Shown piece by piece: positions 38,893 through 45,947 of a stretch of 64,000 nucleotides of DNA; the stretch's first letter is position 1, and every line of letters starts with the position of its first letter. Under the pieces are notes generated by a model, which ran no database searches, had not been told where the DNA came from, and was given only the letters and a program-made list of their open reading frames with translations. The position numbers and the translations under genes are program-made. The DNA comes from Candidatus Eiseniibacteriota bacterium (GTDB taxonomy: Bacteria; Joyebacterota; Joyebacteria; Joyebacterales; Joyebacteraceae): NCBI GenBank assembly GCA_030622115.1, contig JAUXGN010000004.1, positions 26,469-90,468 of the forward strand. Reading direction: 5' to 3'.

Positions 38893-38968
38893 GTTTGGCA
38901 TGAGCTGTGTTGCGTAGTGTTGCGCTTCCGGGGTGGTCCCCGGGAGAAGGCATTGGGAGGAGTTCAGC

Positions 38969-41002
38969 ATGTCACGCTTGCATGTGCCCGATTGGGCCAG
39001 TGTTGCCGTGGTTGTGTTGCTCGTTCTGGCTGTCGCAGTGCCGGCGGCAGGGCAGAGCTCAGGTTATCCGCGGCTGGCCAACATCTACTTCCCGGATCTG
39101 CGGTACGCGGATCTGGAGGTGCTGGCGAAGTGGGATCTGCTGGTGGTTCCCAAGAGGGCCTGCGATCAATGCCTGGATGAGTTGGAGACACTGAGATCAC
39201 TCAATCCGGATATTGAGCGGATAATCCACATGCCTGTGGGCTACCACGGCGAGTGGCTCTCGCCGCCGATCAACGAAGACCTTGTCACTGCGATCTACGA
39301 GAACGACTGGTGGATGAAGGACGTGACGGGGGAGAGAGTGTATCTGCCGTCCGGAGCCGGCGTTGTGAACACAAGCATCTGGGCGCCAACCAACGCAGAA
39401 GGGGAGATGTTCTGCGAGTGGGTGGCCGATTACATCCATGAGCGAATCAGCCCGGATGGGCCATGGGAAGGCGTCTTCCTGGACTACTGCATGGATGATA
39501 TTCACTGGGTCGGCAATGTCCACGGCAGTCCGCTGGATGCCGACGCTGACGGCGTTGCGGATGGGAAGGCGGAGCTGAATGCTGCGTGGAGGGCAGGCAT
39601 GGAGATCCTCGTCTCTCGACTGAGGGAACTCGTCGGGGACGAGTTCACTATGATCACAAATGGGAACAACACGCTCTATGCCGACTGCAACGGGTCCACG
39701 CGTGAGGACTTCCCGGAGATGCACGGCGATTGGTATGACAACATCAAGGATCCCGAATGGGGGTACATCGCCATCTCAACTCTCTACCGCGATCCCATTG
39801 TCTCGATCGTCAACGTGATGTGGGACGGACCGGTTGTCGACGGGGAGCTCGTGCGCGACGATGAGTTCGAGAGAGAGTTCGCCTTCAACTACACGAGCAC
39901 GCTCATCTTTGGGAACGGCTACTATTCGTTTGACGGTGGTGAAGGGCTGACTGAGCATTCGCAGACCTGGTGGCACGAACTCTACGATCTGGAGCTGGGT
40001 GAACCGCGGGCGGGACGCGAGCGTCCCGAGGTCAGCATCGTGGGAGTGGAGCGTTGGGAGATGATCAGCCGTCGGCGCTTCGAGAACGGAGTCGCTGTGG
40101 TCAATCCCACGACCGTCACAGAGACCGTGGGTCTGGGCGGAACCTACTTCCCGAGAGCTTCGTTCAACGGCGAGTTCTACCCGTACGCTGCGGCGACCGG
40201 GAGCGTCGACCTTACGCAATGGTCGGGGGACGTACTCGTGGGGTGTGGACAGGCGTTCTCGTGGGCTCGGAACGTACACGGAACAGTCAACGGATCAGGC
40301 GATGTTGAGCTCCACTGGGATCCTGTCGATGGCGCGAGTGCGTACTCGGTCTACCGTTCACACAGACCGGATGGTTCGTCGAGCCCGGCGGCTCTTATGG
40401 CAGTCGTGAGCGAGCCCGGATACGTGGATACGAGTGCAAAGCCAAATCGAGTGTACTTCTATAGAGTAGCGCCGATCGATGAGTGGAAGTGCGAGGCTCC
40501 CCTGTCCGGGAATGTCTCCATCGTCACGCCCCCGGAGGGGCGTAGTGGGGAGAGTCCGGGTAGTGAAAGCACGAGCGGCGCATCCGACATGTCGGACGGG
40601 GTGGGTGGATTGCTGGAGGATCACCGAGGCGCCTGCGCCGTGAATGTCGACGGGACGGCGGAGTCGTTCGGGGTACCGGCGAGGGAGGCGGGAGAAAGCG
40701 TGGGAAGCATGCTGAGTCTCCACGGTAGCCACCCGAACCCTGCCGGCCAGGCGACCTCCATCTCGTTCGACATCAGAGGTTCCAGAGAAGTTCCCGGTTC
40801 CACAGTCACTCTGACTGTCTACGACATAATGGGGAGAGTGGTGAGGCGTCTCCTTGACGCGGTACTGCCGCCCGGCAGCCACACCGTCACTTGGGACACT
40901 CGAAGCGACTCCGGTGAGCGTGTCGCCTCGGGGTGCTATCTCTACGTCCTGACTCGGGAGGAAGAGAGGCGAAGCGGCAAGGTCGTTGTGCTCGGACCGT
41001 GA
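38969..41002 (+). CDS. secreted glycoside-hydrolase-like protein with C-terminal FlgD/sorting-type Ig domain (paralog 1)
   Basis: Signal peptide; RLANIYFPDLRYADLEVLAKWDLLVV; VFLDYCMDDIHW; ITNGNN; C-term PNPAGQATSISFDI...YDIMGRVVRRL...GERVASGCYLYVL. Confidence 0.65.
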   Translation: MSRLHVPDWASVAVVVLLVLAVAVPAAGQSSGYPRLANIYFPDLRYADLEVLAKWDLLVVPKRACDQCLDELETLRSLNPDIERIIHMPVGYHGEWLSPPINEDLVTAIYENDWWMKDVTGERVYLPSGAGVVNTSIWAPTNAEGEMFCEWVADYIHERISPDGPWEGVFLDYCMDDIHWVGNVHGSPLDADADGVADGKAELNAAWRAGMEILVSRLRELVGDEFTMITNGNNTLYADCNGSTREDFPEMHGDWYDNIKDPEWGYIAISTLYRDPIVSIVNVMWDGPVVDGELVRDDEFEREFAFNYTSTLIFGNGYYSFDGGEGLTEHSQTWWHELYDLELGEPRAGRERPEVSIVGVERWEMISRRRFENGVAVVNPTTVTETVGLGGTYFPRASFNGEFYPYAAATGSVDLTQWSGDVLVGCGQAFSWARNVHGTVNGSGDVELHWDPVDGASAYSVYRSHRPDGSSSPAALMAVVSEPGYVDTSAKPNRVYFYRVAPIDEWKCEAPLSGNVSIVTPPEGRSGESPGSESTSGASDMSDGVGGLLEDHRGACAVNVDGTAESFGVPAREAGESVGSMLSLHGSHPNPAGQATSISFDIRGSREVPGSTVTLTVYDIMGRVVRRLLDAVLPPGSHTVTWDTRSDSGERVASGCYLYVLTREEERRSGKVVVLGP

Positions 41003-41126
41003 CAGGAGAACCCGTCCCACACAGGTCCGGATAGACGGATCCCACCAATATTGCTGACCATACATCAGTATATGAGACACAGCCCACCGTGAGGACGTTC
41101 CGCGCCCGGCACGTGCGCTTGACACG

Positions 41127-41142
41127 TGGCACAGCTCTTGCA
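41127..41142 (+). promoter_or_regulatory. sigma-54 promoter (consensus -24/-12)
   Basis: TGGCAC-AGCTC-TTGCA, 80 nt from the first base of the -24 box to the chosen ATG. Confidence 0.65.
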
Positions 41143-41206
41143 ACTTGGCATAACTGTGCAAGGGGGCAGAACGTTTGACGAGGTCGATACGGAGGGATGT
41201 CCAGCA

Positions 41207-43288
41207 ATGACAAGGTCAGCTGTCAGATGCGAAGTAGAGGACCGAACGCGCTGGGGACTGATACTGTGGGGTATCGGTGTCGTGCTGGCGGTCGTCGTGC
41301 TGGCGTGGCCGCATGCCGCGCTCGGTGAACCATCGTACCCACGCACAGCGAACATCTACTTTCCGAGTCTCATAGGCGCCGATCTCGAGAAACTGGCGCG
41401 TTACGACGTGCTGGTACTCGCCAAGCGGGGCGACGAATGGTACAGAGACGAGCTTGCTGAGCTCAGGGAACTCAATCCTGAGATCATCCTGCTGGTTCAT
41501 ATGCCGGTCGGGTACGCCGGTGATTGGGAATCGCCTGCGATCAACGGTGACCTCAAGGACAAGCTGTTCGAGGACGATTGGTGGATGAGAGACTACGCGG
41601 GGCATCGCGTGTTGCTTCCCTATAGTCAGGTTGGTGACTATCTCCTGAATCTGTCGACAATGTGTCCTGAGAATGGCCAGGGGGAGATGCTCTGCGATTG
41701 GCTCCCGAAGTTCATTGCGGACCGGCTCGGTCCGGGCGGATTGTGGGATGGCGTCTACCTCGACTACTGCATGGATCGCGTCAGCTGGGTGAATGCGTCG
41801 CTTCTGAGACCGATCGATGCCGACAGAGACGGTGTCGGTGATGAACACTCGGAGCTGAACGCAGCGTGGATAGCCGGGATGGAGCGGATGGTGTCGCGCC
41901 TCCGCAGCTTCGTGGGCCCGGACTACATCATCATGACGAATGGAAACAACACGCTTTACGAGAGCTGTGACGGAGGGACGCGTGAGGACTTCCCGAACAT
42001 GCACGGCGGGTGGTATGAGAACATCGCGAACCCTGACTACGGGTACCAGACGATCCAGTCAAACTACCGCCGCCCAACGGTCAACATAATCAACGCTATC
42101 TACCACGGGCCGGCGGACCTTGAACAGGACATGCCGGGCGATCCCTCGGCAGAACGCAAGCTGCGCTACACGCTCGCGAGCACCCTGGTCTACGGCGACG
42201 GATACTTCTCCTTCGATGGGGGAGGTGGTCTTCCCGATCACTGTCAGATGTGGTGGAGTGAACTGTATGAACTCGATCTCGGCGAGGCATTGGGGAGGGC
42301 CGAGGACGTGAGCGCCTATCCCGGAGCCGCTACGTGGATCGAACACGGCGATATGATCCGCCTTAGAAGGTTCTCGAAGGGACTCGCGGTCGTTAACCCC
42401 ACGCTCTGCTCTCAGAGCGTACAGCTTGGCGGCATCTACTATCCGGCCGATGGATTCAACGGCCGCTTCTACCCGCACGAGACGAGCGAGGCCCAGGCTG
42501 ATCTCAAGTACTACTTCGGGGAGATCTACGTCGGGTACGGTCGTGTGCTGGCGGGCATGCCAGCGGTGGATTGCGTGGTTCTCGAGAGCGGTGATGTCCG
42601 TCTAGTCTGGGACGAGGTTGACGGCGCCGTGGAATACAGTGTCTACCGATCAACCGCGAGAGGCGGGAACCCGGGACTGGAAGAGCTCGTTGCCGTCGTC
42701 GAGGAACCAACGTACTACGAAAGCAGTGGAGGAAATCGCGGTGACTGCGTGTACCGCGTGGCGCCGATAGACGAACTGAGGTGTGAGGGTCAGCTGTCTG
42801 TTCCGGTCGCGGCATTAGCAGATTCGTTGAGCGACTTGTCTGTGTTGACCATGGCTGATTGGCCGGACGGACAGCCTGACCTTCCTTGGCATGAACCGGG
42901 CAAGTTCATTGTCCAGGTTGGTGTGATGGATGGCGCCCGTGATCCGAATCTGGAGATCCCCGGGATTCCGGCAGCGGCTGACGCTGATCCCGGAGTGACT
43001 GAACTTCTTGGTTCTGCGCCGAATCCAGTCCGCGACGAGGCAGTGGTCTCGTTCGTCATCGGTGATGATGGCGGCCGCAACAGGGCGGGGCACGTAACGC
43101 TCACCATCTATACGGTGACGGGTCGACGGGTCTCACAGGTTCTGAACGCGGAACTCCCTCCAGGGGAGCACGCTGTCGTGTGGAACAGGCGGACCAGCTC
43201 CGGGGCTCGAGCTCCGGCAGGATGCTACTTCTACGCGCTCACGGTCGATGGCAGCGTAATGAATGGCAAGATGACGTTGGTGCACTGA
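41207..43288 (+). CDS. secreted glycoside-hydrolase-like protein with C-terminal FlgD/sorting-type Ig domain (paralog 2)
   Basis: Collinear with 38969..41002: RTANIYFPSLIGADLEKLARYDVLVL; VYLDYCMDRVSW; MTNGNN; YTVTGRRVSQVL...GARAPAGCYFYAL. Confidence 0.65.
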   Translation: MTRSAVRCEVEDRTRWGLILWGIGVVLAVVVLAWPHAALGEPSYPRTANIYFPSLIGADLEKLARYDVLVLAKRGDEWYRDELAELRELNPEIILLVHMPVGYAGDWESPAINGDLKDKLFEDDWWMRDYAGHRVLLPYSQVGDYLLNLSTMCPENGQGEMLCDWLPKFIADRLGPGGLWDGVYLDYCMDRVSWVNASLLRPIDADRDGVGDEHSELNAAWIAGMERMVSRLRSFVGPDYIIMTNGNNTLYESCDGGTREDFPNMHGGWYENIANPDYGYQTIQSNYRRPTVNIINAIYHGPADLEQDMPGDPSAERKLRYTLASTLVYGDGYFSFDGGGGLPDHCQMWWSELYELDLGEALGRAEDVSAYPGAATWIEHGDMIRLRRFSKGLAVVNPTLCSQSVQLGGIYYPADGFNGRFYPHETSEAQADLKYYFGEIYVGYGRVLAGMPAVDCVVLESGDVRLVWDEVDGAVEYSVYRSTARGGNPGLEELVAVVEEPTYYESSGGNRGDCVYRVAPIDELRCEGQLSVPVAALADSLSDLSVLTMADWPDGQPDLPWHEPGKFIVQVGVMDGARDPNLEIPGIPAAADADPGVTELLGSAPNPVRDEAVVSFVIGDDGGRNRAGHVTLTIYTVTGRRVSQVLNAELPPGEHAVVWNRRTSSGARAPAGCYFYALTVDGSVMNGKMTLVH

Positions 43289-43441: not shown

Positions 43442-44047
43442 ATGAACGTTGTTGACATAATCATAGGAGTGATTCTCCTCATAGGACTCGTATTCGGGCT
43501 CAAGCGCGGATTCGTTAGGACGCTGTTCGGACTGGCAGGGCTGTTTATCGGCGTCGTCGCCGCTGGGGCGAGCTTCGCGTATGCGGCTGAGAACGTGCTC
43601 TTCTTTCTCCCGGGAGATCGAGCGCCGGAGATTGTGAGTTTCATCATGATCTTCATGATCGTGTTCGGGACAGTCATCTTCACCGGTCAGCTGATTGCCA
43701 AGGCACTGAAGATGGCATCGCTCGGGTGGCTGGATCGATTGGCCGGGGGCCTGCTCGGTCTCATCATGGCGTCTCTGTGGACCGGCGTGTTCCTTCTCAT
43801 GGCTGTCATCGGTGGGTTGCACGAGGGACGCGCGCTCGTGAGTTCCAAGCTGGCGCCGCAGGTCTTCAGCGTCACTGATGTGATCGTGACTGTCATTCCG
43901 GAGGGTGTCCGTGGAGGCTTCGAGGAGGACTACAAGCGTCTGAGGGACAACTGGGAGAAGGCGAAGGTGCGGAAGAGGACGCGCCTTGCACTGATGGAGA
44001 CAGCACCGGGCGACCGGAAACGCGGCAGTGAGGTCATCACGATATAG
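43442..44047 (+). CDS. CvpA family membrane protein
   Basis: VVDIIIGVILLIGLVFGLKRGFVRTLFGLAGLFIGVVAA; GWLDRLAGGLLGLIMA. Confidence 0.82.
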   Translation: MNVVDIIIGVILLIGLVFGLKRGFVRTLFGLAGLFIGVVAAGASFAYAAENVLFFLPGDRAPEIVSFIMIFMIVFGTVIFTGQLIAKALKMASLGWLDRLAGGLLGLIMASLWTGVFLLMAVIGGLHEGRALVSSKLAPQVFSVTDVIVTVIPEGVRGGFEEDYKRLRDNWEKAKVRKRTRLALMETAPGDRKRGSEVITI

Positions 44048-44075: not shown

Positions 44076-45947
44076 ATGGCGGATGATTCCGCGCAGGCGG
44101 AGAGCACATTGTCCGGGTCTTCGGACGGTGGGGATCACGCAGAGTCCGGCGGAAGCGCGGATGTCGATGTACTCCGTAGGCTGGGTGTGGACATCACGGA
44201 GATGGCTCTGGCTCAGGGCGTCCCCGATTTCGAGCTTTGGACCGATGAGATATCGCGCGTCAAGGAAGTACTCGAGAAGCGTGAGCGTCATGCCGCGATG
44301 CTTGTGGGGCCACACGGTGTCGGGAAGCGCGGGCTCGTGTTCGCCCTTGCGATCCAGATAGCCGAGGGCGATGCTCCGCCGCACGTTGTGGGTCGACGGA
44401 TCATAGAACTGCCGTTTCACCGTGTGCTTGCGAACGTACACCAGCCCGGTGACTTTGAACGGTTGGTGTTTGCGGCGATGCGGCAGGCGGCCTCGCAGGA
44501 GGACACCATCCTCCTCATGAACAACTTCCCGGCCTTCCTGGGCGTGAGTGGCGGTTCGAAGACGCTTTTCGACGCATCCTACGCGGTGGAGATGGCGTGC
44601 CAGCAGCCGGGGCTCTATCTCCTGGGCGCGGCCACGCCCACTCTCTACAAGGCGGCAATGAACACGCTGCCATGGCTGGAGCGCGCGTTCTCAGTTGTTT
44701 CCATCTCGGAACCGGAGCGGGGGGCTGTCCTCGCGCTCCTCGGGAAAGTGGCCGAGATCTTGGCTGAGTATCACGGTGTGACAATTGGAGAGGACGCTAT
44801 CACATCGGCCGTGGATCTCTCCGGTTACTACGTCAAGGAGAGAGTCCTGCCGGGCAAGGCCATGGAACTGCTCGACGAGGCCGCAGCAAAGGCCGTGTCT
44901 TCCGCTCCGCGAGATGCGGGGCGCCCACGTCTGGACGCGGCGCATGTTGCCGCGGCCCTCTCGCACTGGATCGGCATCCCACCCGACAAGCTGGCCGGCG
45001 CGGTCAACCACGAACTCCTGGACCTCGAGGATTCGCTGATGAAGCGAGTCAAAGGTCAGGATTTCTGCATCAGGAGATTGGCCGACGTCATCCGCGTCTC
45101 GAGGCTGGGTCTGAACGCCAATCCAGAGAGGCCGGACGGTGTCTTCTTGTTTGTGGGGCCGTCAGGTGTAGGCAAGAGCGAGCTGGCACGGGCGCTGGCC
45201 GAGGAACTCTACGGCTCGTCAGCCCGGTTGTTCGAGTTCAACATGACGAGCTACAGTGATGAAGATGGTCTGGCTCGACTCGTTGGCCTGCATCTGGGTG
45301 AACTCGATCATCCCGGCGACCTCACGGCCGTTGTTGAGCGCTATCCCCACTGCGTGATTGTGTTTGAGCAGATCGAGCGTACGCACCGCGACGTTGCGGT
45401 GATGCTGATGCGGACGTTCCGCGAGGGTCGCTTTGTAGACAGCAGTGGCGACGAGGTCTGCTTCTCGAACACAGTCATGATTATGACATCGAATTCCGAG
45501 AATCTTGTGCCGCGGGAAGAGGAGGAGGGGACGGTCGGGTTTGGGGCGACACCTCCCGGTCCCAACGACGAGCGGTATTCCAGGGAGGTCAGAGAGGCGA
45601 TAGAGGAGTTCTTCCCGGCCGAGTTCATGGAGGGTGTCGACGAGGTTCTGATCTTCGATCCACTGAGCGACATTGCGCTCCGGGAGATCGTCAAGATCCA
45701 CCTCGATGACATCGCCGCACGCCTTGCAGAGCGATCGGTTGCACTCGAGGTATCGGACGAGGCGGTCGCCATGATCCTGGACAAGGGCCACAGCAGAGAA
45801 TACGGCGCGAGAAATCTCGGTCGGACAGTCGAGGGCCTGGTTCTGAGGCCCGTGGCCCGGTTCCTGCTGGCGAATCCTGCCGCCGCGACGGTGAGACTCC
45901 GCGTCGTCGAGGGTGAGATCGAAGTAGGCGAGGGCTTGGGCGCGTAG
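44076..45947 (+). CDS. Clp-family (ClpA/B/C-like) double-AAA protein with degenerate catalytic motifs
   Basis: D1 GPHGVGKRG and ILLMNN; D2 GPSGVGKSE and VIVFEQIERTH, VMIMTSN, EYGARNLGRTVEG; no Clp N domain. Confidence 0.82.
   Translation: MADDSAQAESTLSGSSDGGDHAESGGSADVDVLRRLGVDITEMALAQGVPDFELWTDEISRVKEVLEKRERHAAMLVGPHGVGKRGLVFALAIQIAEGDAPPHVVGRRIIELPFHRVLANVHQPGDFERLVFAAMRQAASQEDTILLMNNFPAFLGVSGGSKTLFDASYAVEMACQQPGLYLLGAATPTLYKAAMNTLPWLERAFSVVSISEPERGAVLALLGKVAEILAEYHGVTIGEDAITSAVDLSGYYVKERVLPGKAMELLDEAAAKAVSSAPRDAGRPRLDAAHVAAALSHWIGIPPDKLAGAVNHELLDLEDSLMKRVKGQDFCIRRLADVIRVSRLGLNANPERPDGVFLFVGPSGVGKSELARALAEELYGSSARLFEFNMTSYSDEDGLARLVGLHLGELDHPGDLTAVVERYPHCVIVFEQIERTHRDVAVMLMRTFREGRFVDSSGDEVCFSNTVMIMTSNSENLVPREEEEGTVGFGATPPGPNDERYSREVREAIEEFFPAEFMEGVDEVLIFDPLSDIALREIVKIHLDDIAARLAERSVALEVSDEAVAMILDKGHSREYGARNLGRTVEGLVLRPVARFLLANPAAATVRLRVVEGEIEVGEGLGA

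Follow-up and report, generated by a model that had tools for sequence, protein, structure and literature searches.

Control of ClpP is normally exercised by ATP-driven unfoldases. The locus described here raises the question of what a Clp ATPase may be doing when its residues for hydrolysis and threading have been replaced. It lies in a window of 64,000 nucleotides (the whole stretch of DNA that was analyzed), and its features are collected in Table 1. A first-pass annotation had read the gene product as a double-AAA Clp protein whose catalytic and threading motifs are systematically replaced, and all the motifs that it quoted (GPHGVGKRG, ILLMNN, GPSGVGKSE, VIVFEQIERTH, LVGLHLGELDH, FMEGVDE, MTSN, and YGARN) are present in the translation. 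The motif losses are borne out below; for the function we arrive at a different proposal, a protein that would dock on ClpP.

Table 1. Features of the locus, in positions of the window.
Feature	Position	Strand	Remarks
CvpA/Colicin_V-family membrane protein	43442..44047	+	upstream neighbor; no demonstrated part in the system
Clp/Hsp100 paralog CDS, predicted to be catalytically dead	44076..45947	+	623 aa, ATG start; D1 ~32-275, D2 ~310-600
D1 Walker A GPHGVGKR	44307..44330	+	Lys retained, Arg in place of Ser/Thr (all covering relatives have R or Q)
D1 pore loop HQPGDFE (canonical KYRGEFE)	44439..44459	+	aromatic and Arg gone in relatives
D1 Walker B ILLMNN (canonical ..DE)	44508..44525	+	DE pair absent in every relative
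D1 arginine-finger segment WLERAFS (canonical ALERRFQ)	44673..44693	+	second Arg nearly always gone; Trp invariant in the clade
D2 Walker A GPSGVGKS	45156..45179	+	intact; S/T in the first phylum, Asn for Thr in 4/6 of the second
D2 pore-loop segment GLHLGELDHPGD (canonical GAPPGYVGYEEGGQ)	45285..45320	+	Tyr gone; shorter by two residues
D2 Walker B VIVFEQ (canonical VxLxDE)	45354..45371	+	catalytic Glu replaced by Gln
D2 sensor 1 MTSN	45483..45494	+	kept
VGF tripeptide, in the loop that links sensor 1 to the pre-arginine-finger helix	45534..45542	+	where ClpA and ClpC have their ClpP-docking loop (IGL/IGF/VGF)
D2 arginine-finger segment FMEGVDE (canonical FLNRIDE)	45624..45644	+	Asn-Arg replaced by acidic/Ala-Gly (first phylum), xS or xA (second)
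D2 sensor 2 GAR	45804..45812	+	kept by almost every first-phylum member; Arg lost in 5/6 of the second

A Clp/Hsp100 Protein Outside the Named Families

Searches of Pfam, NCBIfam, and the PDB identify the window protein as a Clp/Hsp100 with two AAA domains and a D2-small domain, the PDB sequence matches spanning both D1 and D2 (E 1e-93). Descent from Clp/Hsp100 is supported throughout the clade described below: AAA_2, AAA_lid_9, and ClpB_D2-small were matched with E < 1e-5 in 18 of 18 members, and P0001 is above the cut-offs. The window protein nevertheless falls outside the ClpA, ClpB, and ClpV/TssH equivalogs, its NCBIfam scores being far under the curated cut-offs (354 vs. 1232 bits for ClpB, 335 vs. 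993 for ClpA, and 329 vs. 885 for TssH). Nor does it belong with ClpC, which is marked by a Clp_N domain and an M-domain. The sequence starts at D1, with no Clp_N match in the Pfam search, and only 16 residues separate D1 from D2, vs. ~72 in ClpC-like proteins and ~133 in ClpB. The D1–D2 core aligns without large insertions. An AlphaFold model made from a 16-row alignment (mean pLDDT 76, pTM 0.58) has the expected secondary structure. The closest structural matches of the model in the PDB are ClpC chains from ClpC-ClpP complexes, with a whole-chain TM of ~0.43, a poor superposition because the domain arrangement in the model is uncertain.

A Clade Conserved in Two Phyla

Orthologs with 53–89% identity are present in 19 of 20 genomes of the window's own phylum (the first phylum in what follows; 8 genera of one family), and the sole genome without one is 57% complete. 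A profile search of 386 genomes led to relatives in a second phylum (family f99 of the taxonomy used by the tool), where six of seven genomes carry open frames of 610–631 codons at ~35% identity. The second-phylum form is the more degenerate of the two. The first-phylum proteins are themselves only ~29% identical to canonical Clps, and in a maximum-likelihood tree both groups form one clade apart from ClpA, ClpB, ClpC, and other canonical Clps (support 100). Long branches could draw the two groups together in such a tree. Despite this risk, common descent is argued for by residues that are shared in the clade and rare or absent in canonical Clps: the Arg following the Lys of D1 Walker A (in most members), W55, H72, P79, F132, A134, F154, W200, V257, G260, D397, and L590. 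No member from a third phylum was found with a joint profile in two broad, overlapping samples of 386 and 385 genomes, in which members scored at least 890 bits and all other proteins 476 or less. The high-scoring non-members that were examined have Walker B acids and arginine fingers (one, L230, with DD in D1).

Two further candidates for the origin or use of the gene were tried and rejected. Sixty-two relatives on viral contigs are 24–38% identical in their best segments, and a coarse motif scan found DE in most of them and an arginine finger in many, some being ambiguous; because of these motifs they look like ordinary Clps, and a viral origin was not adopted. For anti-phage defense, PADLOC gave weak generic AAA matches only.

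The gene is under strong selection, as is well supported by comparison within the genus: the entire gene has a dN/dS of 0.11, and D1 and D2 each have 0.075–0.094. Values for pheS (0.09) and aldehyde dehydrogenase (0.11) are similar, and those for glgA (0.16), pheT (0.22), and cvpA (0.21–0.30) are higher. Ratios above 1 for the GHL15 gene against G002 were left out, most probably being due to a shifted reading frame in the coordinates used. The many catalytic residues gone from the clade might suggest a decaying pseudogene or an error of assembly or sequencing, and in genome G009 the aligned stretch contains a single in-frame TGA, though the frame there is open over 643 residues spanning the core. 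Against this stand the frames that are open across 8 genera and 2 phyla, the 91 of 623 columns that show no variation among 18 members from the two phyla, and the dN/dS values. Given those values for the gene and for each of its domains, the gene is therefore not a pseudogene, and we attach almost no weight to decay or error.

Replacement of the Motor Motifs

A set of 127 columns with a conservation of 90% or more among 23 canonical Clps was checked in both phyla of relatives, residue states at single sites being counted among the relatives that cover each site. The columns lost in both groups include the sites of hydrolysis, inter-subunit sensing, and threading. Kept in both are 54 of the 127 columns; both GxxGxGK cores and structural glycines are retained, as is D2 sensor 1 in most members. 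As judged from the alignments, the pattern of loss is beyond chance: functional columns are gone while P-loop cores and structural glycines stay.

Replaced are the Walker B motif, the arginine finger, and the pore loop of each domain, together with the Ser/Thr of D1 Walker A. The worry that homologs with intact motifs would make the changes private to one sequence is dispelled, the changes being common to relatives in both phyla. For the D1 pore loop the first-pass annotation was too strong: called not recognizable, it is still readable as xxGDFE, although the aromatic and the Arg are indeed gone. The view of the protein as a natural, catalytically dead Clp kept by selection likewise gains support from the presence of the same losses in 19 of 20 and six of seven genomes, together with the dN/dS of ~0.11.

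The state of D2 deserves separate mention. At the catalytic position of Walker B, first-phylum members have His, Gln, Ala, or Asn and second-phylum members Gly, Glu being found only in G001. All first-phylum members have an acidic residue at the position of the Walker B Asp, and the NR of the arginine finger is replaced in every member of both phyla. In essentially all members, the exception being the Glu of G001, the marks of an active Clp unfoldase (Walker B DE, arginine fingers, and pore aromatics) are lost, and loss of catalysis in the window protein is well supported on these grounds. The Gln of the window protein had been likened to the E-to-Q trap mutation of Walker B, a likeness that is incidental because the residue varies among members. 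A conserved ATP-bound switch, also proposed at first pass, fares no better. In the second phylum the D2 nucleotide site has decayed (five of six members have lost the sensor-2 Arg and four of six the Walker A Thr), the clade thus drifting from nucleotide use, which is evidence against such a switch.

A Tripeptide at the ClpP-Docking Position

The loop of residues 479–497 has low confidence in the model, and in 16 first-phylum sequences it is variable except for P479 and V487-G488-F489. VGF, unlike P479, is invariant in the second phylum also, and hence in all 22 full-length sequences (16/16 in the first phylum and 6/6 in the second). The tripeptide aligns with the IGL of E. coli ClpA and with LGF/IGF-type tripeptides of many other Clps; none is seen at the aligned site in E. 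coli ClpB or in the ClpB of the window genome itself. Downstream of sensor 1, the D2 loop of the clade thus bears the (L/I/V)-G-(F/L) motif. It is established that Clp ATPases are anchored through this motif to hydrophobic pockets on ClpP (PMC8745299). VGF serves in ClpX, ClpC, and ClpE, and ClpE in which it is changed to GGR loses interaction with ClpP (PMC13125188). The retention of VGF in a Clp that has lost its catalytic residues is a new observation, absent from the first-pass annotation. We infer that the protein probably docks on ClpP via VGF. The tripeptide could also be an inherited remnant retained for a different contact.

ClpP and the Other Clp Proteins

ClpP co-occurs with the gene. 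It scores over the curated threshold in 18 of the 20 first-phylum genomes, a few of these having only weak, distant matches and being incomplete, and in seven of seven second-phylum genomes; Ser, His, and Asp are present in all 15 full-length ClpPs that were aligned. The genome G009 (97% complete, fragmented into ~190 contigs) has the degenerate Clp with VGF and no ClpP match. The assembly may have a gap here, or ClpP may truly have been lost, which would count against docking. In no genome seen is the gene beside clpP.

ClpX was found in none of the 20 first-phylum genomes, either by its zinc domain or over the clpX cut-off (controls 10/14 each). In the window genome the gene right after clpP is lon, in place of clpX (L139; G000:C75:1-18000), and in the second phylum clpX is beside clpP. 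The window genome also has a ClpB and a canonical ClpC with Clp_N, intact motifs (DE/NR), and an IGF loop, its gene being split over two contig ends (L142:1-2835 and L143:1-1239, on G000:C8 and C90). Two Clp proteins with an (L/I/V)-G-(F/L) tripeptide were seen in this genome, namely ClpC and the degenerate Clp. Since ClpX is missing from the first phylum, these two are left as the tripeptide bearers, which fits a role at ClpP. The degenerate Clp is not simply a replacement for ClpX, because the second phylum has ClpX too. It should be added that a gene for an McsB-like protein-arginine kinase, under the equivalog cut-offs, adjoins clpC in the window genome; the clpC-McsB gene pair is best known from Firmicutes.

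Gene Neighborhood

The first-pass annotation had offered CvpA as a possible partner. In the first phylum cvpA is directly upstream of the gene in all contigs that reach that far. The adjacency carries little weight because the entire block is syntenic wherever contigs reach: glgA, one or two GHL15 genes, cvpA, the degenerate Clp gene, aldehyde dehydrogenase, infC, rplT, pheS, and pheT. Near the gene in the second phylum no CvpA was seen; the neighbors vary by genome (diacylglycerol kinase, TPR proteins, MotA/ExbB, serpin, and VWA). The partnership is thus not upheld. Upstream of cvpA in the window (38933-43288) lies a tandem pair of GHL15 proteins, hypothetical glycosyl hydrolases whose C-termini are FlgD-Ig-like, and the GHL15 copy number appears to differ, one to two, between genera. 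In one second-phylum genome a full-length serpin gene is convergent with and adjacent to the degenerate Clp gene (L105:11047-12402).

Possible Function

We give an even chance to the view that the protein is a catalytically dead Clp ATPase that docks on ClpP as a cap, plug, or gate, or as a competitor of ClpC. The protein would form a ring or partial ring sitting on ClpP. In the first phylum nucleotide at D2 might hold its subunits together; otherwise packing alone would do so. The loss of both arginine fingers, plus that of sensor 2 in the second phylum, could weaken ring formation. The protein would not unfold or thread substrates. Its VGF loops would occupy the hydrophobic pockets and so cap, plug, or gate ClpP, or keep ClpC from it. 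Alternatively, ClpP might be opened for already unfolded polypeptides without ATP hydrolysis, and the sequences seem to fit blocking and opening equally. A stronger version, that of a natural cap independent of ATP hydrolysis that opens or closes ClpP via VGF and belongs to the regular proteostasis machinery of two candidate phyla, of which one has lost ClpX, we hold tentatively and think somewhat more likely to be wrong than right.

Other functions have to be weighed against docking. An inactive subunit might co-assemble with canonical ClpC in mixed hexamers and tune or poison their activity, as happens in other heteromeric AAA+ rings. The presence in the same genome of an intact ClpC with an IGF loop would suit such rings, as would the retained P-loop cores and a D1–D2 core free of large insertions; yet identity to canonical Clps is low, the N- and M-domains are absent, and both arginine fingers, which would act in the neighboring subunit, are gone. 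On balance we consider mixed rings unlikely. A further candidate is an active, non-canonical D2 ATPase whose base would be the acidic residue replacing Asp, or another residue. In its favor, most first-phylum members have a D2 with Walker A, sensor 1, and GAR intact, all of them have an acidic residue at the Asp position, and G001 has the Glu at the catalytic position. This activity would have to be sustained at a catalytic position that varies freely and in the face of the loss of NR and of the pore aromatic from D2 of every member, and we regard it as quite improbable.

In the first-pass view the protein would be a scaffold or switch that depends on nucleotide and has no part in proteolysis, and that might act with CvpA at the membrane. 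It can draw on D2 Walker A, sensor 1, and first-phylum sensor 2, which are mostly intact, and on the position of cvpA immediately upstream in every first-phylum contig reaching it. However, the surrounding block is syntenic as a whole, the second phylum has no CvpA seen nearby and has decayed in D2 Walker A and sensor 2, and the invariant VGF is left unexplained, so that a scaffold or switch seems improbable to us. Docking on ClpP, our preferred reading, gives the tripeptide a role. If true, it would provide a bacterial pseudoenzyme regulator of ClpP in which the docking loop is kept and the motor lost, and would permit a direct test of whether docking alone, without hydrolysis, regulates ClpP in a cell.

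Comparison with Known Systems

A literature search, with many subscription papers beyond its reach, returned no described pseudo-unfoldase or Clp pseudoenzyme regulator of ClpP. The closest known proteins are ClpC, ClpA, and ClpE, with which the window protein shares the D1–D2 fold, the P-loop cores, D2 sensor 1, and, at the corresponding place in the loop, an (L/I/V)-G-(F/L) tripeptide. It differs from them in belonging to a separate clade and in lacking the N- and M-domains, the acid pairs of Walker B, the arginine fingers, and the pore aromatics. The plant SMXL/SMAX1/D53 proteins are also atypical relatives of Clp ATPases that are used outside standard unfolding. The SMXLs still have the Clp-N domain, carry an EAR motif, and are without the IGF/L motif (PMC9133912), whereas the window protein has no Clp_N and does have VGF; it is thus not an SMXL, and a SMAX1 structure is only a weak sequence match to D2.

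Torsins, which are Clp-like AAA proteins of eukaryotes, resemble the clade in having no arginine finger and in the Asn that follows the Walker A Lys, as in four second-phylum members. They differ in that they have just one AAA domain, with Walker B intact, and need a membrane activator. Finally, should the protein open ClpP without hydrolysis, its functional analogues would be the ATP-independent proteasome activators PA28 and PafE/Bpa, although these have unrelated folds and act on another protease.
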